44,155 bases of DNA, taken from NCBI GenBank assembly GCA_018699395.1, contig JABIQN010000050.1, positions 1-44,155 on the forward strand, written 5' to 3'. Source of the DNA: Gammaproteobacteria bacterium. GTDB lineage: Bacteria; Pseudomonadota; Gammaproteobacteria; Steroidobacterales; Woeseiaceae. The notes under the pieces are model-generated. The model did not search any database, was not told where the DNA came from, and worked only from the letters and a program-made list of their open reading frames with translations. The position numbers and the translations under genes are program-made. Of the stretch, positions 40,262-44,155 are shown piece by piece (the first letter of the stretch is position 1; each line of letters begins with the position of its first letter).

Positions 40262-41125
40262 TCAGCGGCCAATACAGGTTCCCGCATATGCTTTTTGCAC
40301 GCCAGCATTCTCGATTTGGCAGCTGTTGTCATAGGTTTCGCCATCCACACCACAAACCGGCAAGAAATCGTTCGAACAATTTTCGCCCAGACTTTCGCAA
40401 ACACCTGCGTATTCTATAGTGATACCGCGGCGCTCAGCGAAACAAGCGTTACCGTAGGTCATCGCATCTTCGCCACACACCGGCACGAACAAGCGTGGGC
40501 ATGAGCGTACGTTACAAAGCCCTTCTGTGAAGTTAGTTACACCGGCTTTTTCCCCAAAGCAGGCATTGTCATAGGTAACGCCATCTTCACCGCACACCGG
40601 TGCGAATACCTGCGGACAATTATTGACATCGCAAACACCCTCACGCTGTACCAGAATTCGATCAGCTTCAGCCTCGCAACGATTCATGAATGTTCGACCG
40701 CTCATACCACAAACGGGGTTATCATAACTCGGGCATCCGTTTACTGTGCAGGCGCCAAGACCAGCAATTTCAGCCCCTGATTTACCGGCAAAACACTCAT
40801 TAATATAAGTGTTGCCATCGGCTCCACAAACGGGATTGAATGTCTCAGGACAACCGTCAGGCTCTACGCCAACACACATACCCACTGTCGCGATTTCAAC
40901 CCCAGCGATCCCAGCCACACAATTGTTACTGTATGTATTTCCATCTACGCCGCACACCGGATCGTATTGCATAGTGCATGCAATCTCATCGCTCTCCGCT
41001 AAAACCAGTGTCGACGCGGTTGAGGGAAATATTCTCTGCAGATCCACATCGCCAGCTGCTGCCGACATCATCGAACACATGAAAAGAGCGGTCGCACAAA
41101 GGCTAATATTGAATTTATGTTTCAT
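40262..41125 (-). CDS. Secreted protein with six tandem Kazal-like serine protease inhibitor domains
   Basis: Signal peptide MKHKFNISLCATALFMCSMMSAAAG, then six repeats of C-x7-C-x10-C-x14-C with PVCGxDGxTYxNxC-type core; 24 Cys in the mature protein, all in the pattern. Confidence 0.93.
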   Translation of the reverse strand: MKHKFNISLCATALFMCSMMSAAAGDVDLQRIFPSTASTLVLAESDEIACTMQYDPVCGVDGNTYSNNCVAGIAGVEIATVGMCVGVEPDGCPETFNPVCGADGNTYINECFAGKSGAEIAGLGACTVNGCPSYDNPVCGMSGRTFMNRCEAEADRILVQREGVCDVNNCPQVFAPVCGEDGVTYDNACFGEKAGVTNFTEGLCNVRSCPRLFVPVCGEDAMTYGNACFAERRGITIEYAGVCESLGENCSNDFLPVCGVDGETYDNSCQIENAGVQKAYAGTCIGR

Positions 41126-41133
41126 TATTCTCT

Positions 41134-41940
41134 TTAGAGTGCCAATAGGTGTTGTAGTTCAACACTTTTTTGCGATGCCTCAGTTTTATAACTCATTGTG
41201 GCGTTGGCGTCTCGCAACAGCTCGCTAATGGTGACCAATTCAAAACCTTCTGCTTCGAGCTTGGGTAATTCTCGCTCAAGCAAGTCGAGGGTGCTTGAAT
41301 ATGGATGGCCAATCACAATGACAGAGCCTCGCTTGACAGCCAATTGCTTCATGCGCTCGAATTCACGTACGACAGTTTCAGGATGCTGATCCGGGTCGAG
41401 AAAAACATCGCGTTTGCGTGCGTCGACGCCTGTTTCGTCAGCGATCTTGATAGCGATACTTTCGTGCGTTGTAAAGCTATCGACGAAGAACAGATTATCT
41501 CGCGCCTGTATCTCTTCCATCAGCCATCGCATATGACCGGGATGGCGAGTCAATAAGCTGCCGCGGTGGCCGTTCACACCAATGGCGTGTGGCACAGATG
41601 TCAACGCAGCCGCAAATGTATCGTTGAACTCGCTGCGAGTCATGTCAAGACGAATACCGAGTGGCTCTTCATTTCGGTCGCTTATAACTGCTTGCAGCGG
41701 CAAGTGCAGCAGCACTTCTTTGCCACGCTCAAAAGCGCGTACAGCTAGTGACCGGGCGCCTGGTGTTCCCGGCAGCACAGCAAAGGAAATTGGGCCTGGC
41801 AGTTCAATTGCCCGTCGCCCCGCATCAAGCCGGTAACCTAAATCATCAATAATAATCGCTATTCGTGGCGGACTGTTAGCGGCACCTCCCGATGCCAGCA
41901 ACACAAGTAGCGCGAGTAAACAAACTCTTACAGTCGTCAT
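41134..41940 (-). CDS. yibQ: Divergent polysaccharide deacetylase family protein (YibQ-like)
   Basis: RIAIIIDDLGYRLDAGRRAIELPGPISFAVLPGTPGA, EVLLHLPLQ, GVNGHRGSLLT, FFVDSFTT, VIVIGHPY. Confidence 0.9.
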   Translation of the reverse strand: MTTVRVCLLALLVLLASGGAANSPPRIAIIIDDLGYRLDAGRRAIELPGPISFAVLPGTPGARSLAVRAFERGKEVLLHLPLQAVISDRNEEPLGIRLDMTRSEFNDTFAAALTSVPHAIGVNGHRGSLLTRHPGHMRWLMEEIQARDNLFFVDSFTTHESIAIKIADETGVDARKRDVFLDPDQHPETVVREFERMKQLAVKRGSVIVIGHPYSSTLDLLERELPKLEAEGFELVTISELLRDANATMSYKTEASQKSVELQHLLAL

Positions 41941-43157
41941 TGCGCCTGACTGTGCATCACAGAGCGAGGCTTGAGTTGCAGTATCGCTTCCGCCAACTGT
42001 TGGTCGGCCTCGCTATCAAGGATTCCAGCTAAGCTGAGATCCGGAAAACCGGGCGCGTCATCGATATGAACATCGGGCATGATGCCAATCTCGTGGATAG
42101 AGTTACCCGATGGCGTGTGATATCGCGATGTTGTAATTTTGATCGCGCGGCCCTTCGACAATGGCATGACGGTCTGTACCAGTCCTTTGCCAAATGTCGG
42201 TGTGCCAACAATGGTTGCCCGGTTATGATCCTGCAGTGCTCCGGCCACGATCTCAGCTGCGGACGCCGAGCCACTATTGACAAGCACCGCCATCGTAGCG
42301 CCGTCGAGAATGTCCCCCCGGTGCGCTGAGCGTGTAAAGCGCGCTTCCACGGTACGGCCATCTGCCGATACGATTACTCCGGAGTCCAGAAATAAATCCG
42401 ATACATCCACTGCTGAATCGAGCACACCGCCAGGATTATTGCGAAGGTCCAACACCAGCCCCTCGAGCATACCGTGATTGGCCTCTTGCAAGTCATCAAT
42501 GGCATGACTCAATTCACGTGCCGTGTTATCGCTAAACTGATTGACGCGTACGTAGCCATAGGACGGACGCAGAAATTCTTTATGCACACTGGCAACGCGG
42601 ATAATTTGCCGTTGCATGCCATGATCTATTATGACACCGTCTCGCAGTACAGATAAGGTCACCTTTGAGCCGATCTGGCCCCTCAGCCGCCCCATTGTGT
42701 CGCTCAATCTATCGTATACAATAGCCAGTCCGTCAACGGCAACCAACTCATCACCGCCCCGAATTCCCGCGCGCGCGGCTGGCGATCCGGCGATGGGCGA
42801 GATAATTCGAATTGCATTATCGATTTGCCCGATCTCAATACCGACTCCGGTGTAGCTTCCCGACGTACTGATGCGAATATCACGATATTCACTTGCGGTC
42901 AGATATTCGGAGTGCGGATCCAGATTGTCCACCATGCCGCGCATAGCACTTTCAAGCAAAATAACGTCATCTACAGGCTCGACATACTCGCGCTTGACTC
43001 GCTCAATGACCTCAGCAAAAAGCTGCGCCTGCTCCCAGGCCAGCTCCTGCTTAATAACCGGTCTTCCAGATCCAAGCAAGCTACCGCCGATGGACAGGCT
43101 CAAACCCATGATTACACCGATGACGACAACGAGAATTACTCTTGTTTTCAAAGACAT
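41937..43157 (-). CDS. ctpA: S41 family carboxyl-terminal processing protease
   Basis: PDZ GVGIEIGQIDNAIRIISPIAGSPAARAGIRGGDELVAVDG, LVLDLRNNPGGVLDSAVDVSDLFLD, VLVNSGSASAAEIVAGALQDHNRATIVGTPTFGKGLVQTV. Start placed at MSLKTRVIL. Confidence 0.95.
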   Translation of the reverse strand: MSLKTRVILVVVIGVIMGLSLSIGGSLLGSGRPVIKQELAWEQAQLFAEVIERVKREYVEPVDDVILLESAMRGMVDNLDPHSEYLTASEYRDIRISTSGSYTGVGIEIGQIDNAIRIISPIAGSPAARAGIRGGDELVAVDGLAIVYDRLSDTMGRLRGQIGSKVTLSVLRDGVIIDHGMQRQIIRVASVHKEFLRPSYGYVRVNQFSDNTARELSHAIDDLQEANHGMLEGLVLDLRNNPGGVLDSAVDVSDLFLDSGVIVSADGRTVEARFTRSAHRGDILDGATMAVLVNSGSASAAEIVAGALQDHNRATIVGTPTFGKGLVQTVMPLSKGRAIKITTSRYHTPSGNSIHEIGIMPDVHIDDAPGFPDLSLAGILDSEADQQLAEAILQLKPRSVMHSQAQ

Positions 43158-43229
43158 ATGCTGTTCCAGGCGCCCCGGCCTTTGGCTCTTATGGCACAAT
43201 CTTCGCACCTTAGCACAGAATACCGGCCT

Positions 43230-44155
43230 CTAGTCTCCGGGGCGCGGCGTCATCCAGTCCCTTGGATTCACCGGCTTGATGCCCTTACGAAGCTCGAAAT
43301 ACAGGCTGGATTGTTGTTGCCCACCGCTATCGCCAACCGTCGCTATAACATCCCCCGGCGCCACCCAGTCACCAACGTTCTTGAGGATCATCTCGCTATA
43401 ACCATATAGCGTCATATAACCCTCGCCATGATCAACAATTACGAGCAACCCCATACCCGCCAGCCAGTCAGCGAAAGCAATGCGGCCATGATAGACCGCG
43501 CGCACCTCGCGACCACGAGGTGCCGCAAGTATGACGCCATTCCACTTGATGTTACCGCCAACACGTGGCTGACCGAAATCGTGAACGAGTGTTCCGGTGA
43601 CGGGCCAGATGAGGCGAGCCTTATGCTCTATAAAGGGCTCCTCTGAGCTAATGGAGTAGTCTGACAAGATGCTCGTGAGCTCAGCAATCAATCTACTTAG
43701 ATCCTGTTCCTGGATTGCAAGGCGGCCAACCTCTTGCTCTTCATCAGCGATTCTCTTACGCAAATTAACCAGCAACTCCCGACGCTCTTCGAGCGAGCCG
43801 TTCAGCTCACCAAGCTCCTGATATCGAGCTTTAGACAAACCTGCCAAGCGCGCCTCCTCAGCAGCGATTTTGCTACGTAGCTCATCGAGTTTTCGAATCT
43901 CATCCATCACGGCGGAAATGTTCTCAGCGCGATAGTTATTAAGGTATCGGTAATACGTCATCAGACGCCCGAGCGTTGCCGGCTCACGCTGATTCAGGAG
44001 TAATTTGATTTTTTCCTGGCTGCCACTCATGTAAGCCGTCCGCACCTGTTCCACCAGCTTGTCAGATTCTTTGTCTAAATGAGCCTCGCGAATGACCAAG
44101 TCAGCATCAAGAGTTCGCTTTTTCTTTTCAGTAACCCGCTGCTGGCGCTTAATAC
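43230..44155 (-). CDS. envC: Murein hydrolase activator EnvC-like (coiled coil plus degenerate LytM/M23 domain), N-terminus beyond the window
   Basis: Coiled coil then LIWPVTGTLVHDFGQPRVGGNIKWNGVILAAPRGREVRAVYHGRIAFADWLAGMGLLVIVDHGEGYMTLYGYSE...LYFELRKGIKPVNPRDW. Reading frame stays open to the right edge (...IKRQQRVTEKKKRTLDADLVIREA). Confidence 0.9.
   Translation of the reverse strand, partial: IKRQQRVTEKKKRTLDADLVIREAHLDKESDKLVEQVRTAYMSGSQEKIKLLLNQREPATLGRLMTYYRYLNNYRAENISAVMDEIRKLDELRSKIAAEEARLAGLSKARYQELGELNGSLEERRELLVNLRKRIADEEQEVGRLAIQEQDLSRLIAELTSILSDYSISSEEPFIEHKARLIWPVTGTLVHDFGQPRVGGNIKWNGVILAAPRGREVRAVYHGRIAFADWLAGMGLLVIVDHGEGYMTLYGYSEMILKNVGDWVAPGDVIATVGDSGGQQQSSLYFELRKGIKPVNPRDWMTPRPGD

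Follow-up and report, generated by a model that had tools for sequence, protein, structure and literature searches.

What does a chain of six Kazal domains do in a Gammaproteobacterium of the family Woeseiaceae, and under what control is it made? The question is raised by a gene at positions 40262–41125 (minus strand), here called kazal, of a 44,155-nucleotide stretch of DNA, the whole of which we refer to as the window. Woeseiaceae (order Woeseiales in the NCBI taxonomy) rank with the most abundant bacteria in marine sediments, and feed there partly on protein. An earlier note, made from the window's sequence, had described the cysteine repeats of the product and proposed a reduced Kazal fold, but missed the gene's invariant operon position, its conservation throughout the genus and a sigma-E-type promoter in front of it. 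The fixation of kazal in the genus, its place in an operon and a promoter with RpoE geometry are what is new here, and the literature search yielded no paper on a Kazal protein from Woeseiaceae.

The kazal product is built of six Kazal domains lacking one cysteine pair

The open reading frame translates into 287 residues, in which a signal peptide is followed by six Kazal domains. The signal peptide (residues 1–24; 41054–41125, minus strand) was read from the sequence, with likely cleavage at SAAA/GDVD; the AlphaFold2 model has a helix at residues 6–23, and the N-termini are alike in all relatives. As the earlier note had stated, all 24 named cysteines of the mature chain are present and form six units, every one of them exactly C-x7-C-x10-C-x14-C, while the only cysteines outside the repeats, C10 and C17, both lie within the signal peptide. 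Shuffling the mature chain 20,000 times gave at most two complete units per shuffle. The units are joined by linkers of 7, 4, 4, 4 and 6 residues, and the acidic, soluble chain has a computed mass of 27.5 kDa and a pI of 4.05.

All six domains lie on the minus strand and were delimited by Pfam, the AlphaFold2 model and the cysteine pattern. They are domain 1 (40874–40978; Cys 50/58/69/84; predicted P1 Met52), domain 2 (40748–40852; Cys 92/100/111/126; Glu94), domain 3 (40631–40735; Cys 131/139/150/165; Ser133), domain 4 (40514–40618; Cys 170/178/189/204; Gln172), domain 5 (40397–40501; Cys 209/217/228/243; Arg211) and domain 6 (40274–40378; Cys 250/258/269/284; Asn252). In the two-bridge domain 1 of the horseshoe crab inhibitor CrSPI-1, the first cysteine occupies P3, and P1 comes two residues later (PMC3082530).

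Two checks proposed in the earlier note, a profile search and structure prediction, both returned six Kazal domains. By profile, the product belongs to the Kazal family (Pfam PF00050, MEROPS I1): Kazal_1 (PF00050) matched six stretches with an E-value of 6.3e-44 and 148 bits against a cut-off of 21, and Kazal_2 likewise matched six stretches (E-value 1.8e-34), far over its curated cut-off. NCBIfam holds no naming model for the protein; its sole match, an OAT transporter that contains a Kazal-like stretch, was rejected with a score far under its cut-off. AlphaFold2, run on an alignment of 50 relatives, predicted the strand-helix-strand pattern of the Kazal fold, a short antiparallel sheet with one central helix, in each of the six domains, with a mean pLDDT of 83.5 and values of about 90 or more across most of domains 2–6; the relative placement of the domains is uncertain in the model (pTM 0.61). 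Foldseek matched the domains to known inhibitors (4hgu, 3pis and 1an1). A single domain superposed on the silk protease inhibitor GmSPI-2 (4hgu) at 0.8 Å over 36 residues with 53% identity and on CrSPI-1 domain 1 (3pis) at 0.5 Å over 30 residues with 60% identity, and leech tryptase inhibitor was also among the matches of single domains.

Classical Kazal domains have six cysteines paired 1-5, 2-4 and 3-6, whereas C1 and C5 are missing from all six domains of the kazal product. The spacing of the remaining cysteines (x7, x10, x14) is in every domain identical to that of GmSPI-2, whose crystallographically known bridges C5-C24 and C13-C39 correspond to C2-C4 and C3-C6 in C-x7-C-x10-C-x14-C (PMC4169406). 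It is therefore well founded to infer that the six domains keep these two bridges and have dispensed with C1-C5, as had been suggested for this locus. In one relative (L026, the same gene as L127), C2 and C4 of domain 3 are both gone, as would be expected of bonded partners. Another relative, L049, lacks only C4 of domain 3, which leaves one free cysteine; in some species, such as these two, domain 3 seems to be decaying. The proposal of a reduced two-disulfide Kazal domain was thus borne out as to its form, but this form is not peculiar to the present protein: it is already known from animals (GmSPI-2, CrSPI-1 domain 1) and from other bacteria, namely in alphaproteobacterial proteins.

The six-domain protein is fixed in one genus of Woeseiaceae

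The gene was found in 35 of 36 sampled genus mates, with 59–96% identity over long matches, and was absent from all 23 genomes sampled from the order's other families. The one exception within the genus, G029, was rejected as a clean loss of kazal: yibQ and a close ctpA are also missing, the whole locus being absent from the assembly. The window genome contains kazal as a single locus, with no second copy. Kazal matches occurred in about 4% of the genomes in two samples, one of 369 Gammaproteobacteria and one of 398 Pseudomonadota. Other gammaproteobacterial Kazal proteins mostly have single classical six-cysteine domains and are often apparent lipoproteins; those from the wider Pseudomonadota mostly have four cysteines, lack C1-C5 and reach up to three tandem copies. 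Within these samples, all from Pseudomonadota, six-domain proteins occurred only in the window's genus. As to the origin of the gene, a phage source was rejected with 0 matches among 50,697 phage records, as was a recent gain from a plasmid, since the megaplasmids of Sinorhizobium and Shinella hold only distant Kazal proteins with 31–35% identity.

The 24 cysteines in six units are retained in nearly all of the 57 named relatives, and a strict count gives six domains in 54 of 58 loci. Two relatives, L133 and L134, have seven Kazal domains. When domains were compared one by one, the best match was the domain at the same position in other species in 51–53 of 53 cases, which marks the array as old and stable. 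The predicted P1 residue is fairly constant in domains 1–3 (mostly Met, Glu and Ser, respectively) and drifts in domains 4 (Lys/Gln/Arg), 5 (Arg/Asn) and 6 (Arg/Asn/Asp). The framework of the reactive loop (P2 Pro/Thr, P2' Tyr/Phe, P-V-C) is preserved in most domains, and domain 5 carries, after C4 and outside the reactive loop, an invariant ERRG stretch.

kazal is the last gene of an envelope operon

In the window, kazal ends the series envC-ctpA-yibQ-kazal, all on the minus strand. It is preceded at a distance of 8 nt by yibQ (41134–41940; Pfam), which encodes a divergent polysaccharide deacetylase (PF04748); upstream of this lie ctpA/prc (41937–43208; Pfam, NCBIfam), for a C-terminal processing peptidase of family S41 with a PDZ domain, and a gene for an EnvC-like murein hydrolase activator of family M23 (43230–44099; Pfam, NCBIfam). 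The order ctpA-yibQ-kazal on one strand was found in all 53 named loci that have the three genes, and other families of the order retain yibQ without kazal. No intrinsic terminator was found downstream of kazal. In roughly one relative out of three, the gap between yibQ and kazal widens to about 650 nt. These long gaps hold a methyltransferase-like open reading frame (for example L038, 6862–7479, minus strand), which is missing elsewhere, including from the window.

A putative sigma-E-type promoter precedes kazal

A pattern scan located a sigma-E-type promoter, GAACT-N16-CTCTAA, at 41134–41160 (minus strand; −35 box 41160–41156, −10 box 41139–41134), overlapping the stop codon of yibQ. The corresponding pattern GAAC[CT]-N17-TCTAA, and with it the boxes and fixed spacing of the RpoE regulon (GAACTT-like −35, TCTAA-like −10), was found upstream of kazal in 47 of 58 loci (those of the relatives lying within L081–L137). 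When the spacing was varied from 12 to 24, no other value gave the same two boxes upstream of kazal, and the pattern preceded neither yibQ (0/53 loci), ctpA (0/52) nor envC (0/49). The invariance of the boxes themselves follows from how the sites were picked, that is, by pattern. The columns of the spacer carry 0.04–0.47 bit except beside the boxes; 32 loci have unrelated spacers (less than 60% alike), so the two boxes are not accounted for by shared descent alone. The distance from the element to the start codon also differs among loci. In the 1.5 Mb window genome, exact matches to GAACY-N16-CTCTAA were confined to the kazal site.

A sigma-70 promoter was rejected, as a simple scan found none at the kazal start and the invariant bases fit the boxes of ECF factors, not TTGACA/TATAAT. 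A wider regulon defined by the strict pattern was also rejected: beyond kazal and rpoH, counts were no higher than those of the reversed control pattern. We infer from the motif that the promoter probably belongs to the RpoE (sigma-E) class, because the same geometry precedes rpoE and rpoH in genus mates and recurs in the RpoE promoters of Shewanella, including those of rpoE, whose start was mapped by primer extension, and rpoH (PMC4336711). In the genus mates, rpoE is preceded by GAACT-N17-TCTAT (the geometry GAAC-N18-TCTA) in 8 of 8 genomes. Three genomes have GAAC[CT]-N17-TCTAA before rpoH, and a fourth has a matching site there that bears a CIRCE element; rpoH of the window genome has GGAACTT with a spacer one base longer, plus a CIRCE element. 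The sigma-E-like promoter of rpoH overlaps CIRCE (TTAGCACTC-N9-GAGTGCTAA; L205, 1257–1305, in the window genome, and L176, L192, L196 and L187), an arrangement which suggests that RpoE and HrcA both control this heat-shock sigma factor.

RpoE is encoded in 8 of 8 full-size relatives, but was not detected in the window genome (G000) or its close sister (G004), both of about 1.5 Mb and about 90% complete. In the window genome, only two genes of the sigma-70 family were seen, one RpoD-like and one RpoH-like. Relatives with genomes of 2.5–4.4 Mb carry RpoE and often other ECF factors too. Either rpoE lies in the missing tenth of both assemblies or it was lost in this streamlined lineage; in the latter case the promoter would be a relic there and kazal would be read from yibQ. 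Sigma-E control of kazal in the window organism itself is thus doubtful.

An inhibitor of serine proteases in the periplasm?

With a probability of roughly 0.55, we consider the kazal product to be an exported, most likely periplasmic, multi-headed inhibitor of serine proteases that acts by the standard mechanism through six two-disulfide Kazal domains, much as ecotin does with another fold, and is induced by envelope stress. Each domain would present a protease of the chymotrypsin or subtilisin type with a rigid loop, C2-P2-P1-P1'-[YF]-x-P-V-C, and the six different P1 residues (M, E, S, Q, R, N) could give a single chain several specificities. Across most Woeseiaceae, an RpoE promoter of its own would drive kazal, with read-through from envC-ctpA-yibQ as a possible addition, so that envelope damage would raise the amount of inhibitor when outside proteases or the cell's own secreted S8 and S1 enzymes could reach the periplasm. 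The related two-bridge domains have proven targets: GmSPI-2 inhibits subtilisin and proteinase K (PMC4169406), and CrSPI-1 inhibits subtilisin (PMC3082530). Proteases of families S1 and S8 are encoded in Woeseiales genomes, and W. oceani in culture has trypsin- and chymotrypsin-like activities; the paper on these peptidases reports no inhibitors (PMC7082342). Candidate targets of the cell's own in the window genome are one S8 subtilase with Fn3-type domains and one DegP-like S1 protease. Against inhibition speak several P1 residues (Glu, Ser, Asn, Gln) that are poor for many serine proteases, and P1 positions that do not show the strong hypervariability expected from an arms race.

P1 residues that are unremarkable in several domains agree with the main rival explanation, which we regard as rather unlikely: a protein that binds rather than inhibits, its Kazal modules holding an envelope protein or a cell-wall component, perhaps in the peptidoglycan pathway of EnvC and CtpA. 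Kazal modules serve for recognition in follistatin or agrin, and these two were the best whole-chain Foldseek and PDB sequence matches by E-value. Slow evolution of the domains, the company of murein and envelope genes in every genome and the invariant ERRG stretch of domain 5, outside the reactive loop, are also what such a scaffold might show. Single domains, however, fit GmSPI-2 and CrSPI-1 at 0.5–0.8 Å, as opposed to about 15 Å for the chain on follistatin, and the framework of the reactive loop, preserved in most domains, also speaks against this reading. Slow evolution might also reflect a fixed target, and with the constant neighbourhood of ctpA-yibQ, the sigma-E-type promoter and the survival of one DegP-like S1 and one S8 protease in so small a genome, it is conceivable, though improbable, that the protein restrains an enzyme of its own cell (the DegP-like protease, CtpA or the secreted subtilase), thereby tuning the envelope stress response. 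CtpA works with a Ser-Lys dyad and DegP has a caged active site, and neither is a usual Kazal target; moreover, other families of the order manage with yibQ and no kazal. Finally, a Sec-type signal peptide and an acidic, soluble chain would suit an inhibitor released to block the proteases of neighbours, predators or hosts, or to protect shared exoenzymes, in keeping with life in sediments by protein degradation (PMC7082342). We consider this quite improbable, as the only secretion signal seen was of the Sec type, the sigma-E-type promoter argues for the envelope and P1 is not hypervariable.

We suggest tentatively, and at somewhat less than even odds, that a lineage-specific, disulfide-rich Kazal array was recruited into the sigma-E envelope-stress response, either as a broad shield against serine proteases or as a brake on envelope proteases. 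Such a role is undescribed for any Kazal protein in the literature we found. If true, a fixed six-headed Kazal protein behind a predicted envelope-stress promoter would connect envelope defence with the inhibition of proteases in a bacterial group that is dominant and mostly uncultured. The array also supplies small Kazal domains of two bridges each, whose six different reactive sites can be tested individually.

Comparison with known systems

The most likely functional model is ecotin, an exported, broad serine-protease inhibitor of Gram-negative bacteria that is thought to guard E. coli from outside proteases (PMC9904509). It is not a relative: ecotin is a dimer of unrelated fold without disulfide-rich repeats, its family profile did not match the kazal product, and Pfam gave only Kazal-type families for the latter. 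By structure, a close system is GmSPI-2 (Galleria silk protease inhibitor 2; PDB 4HGU, 2M5X; non-classical Kazal group 1), which shares the cysteine spacing and has only two bridges, but is a single-domain insect silk protein with proven inhibitory activity. Domain 1 of CrSPI-1 (PDB 3PIS, 3QTL) also has two bridges, lacks C1-C5 and is part of a tandem, nanomolar inhibitor of subtilisin, yet this animal protein has two domains only, the second with three bridges. The multi-Kazal proteins LEKTI and EPI1 likewise include atypical two-bridge domains, in which, however, the missing pair is C3-C6 (PMC1236909). Among bacteria, the single and tandem Kazal proteins of Alphaproteobacteria are similar in being exported four-cysteine forms without C1-C5 in up to three copies; they differ from the kazal product in that most are apparent lipoproteins or have an extra cysteine-rich N-terminal part, in their genomic context and in having fewer domains.
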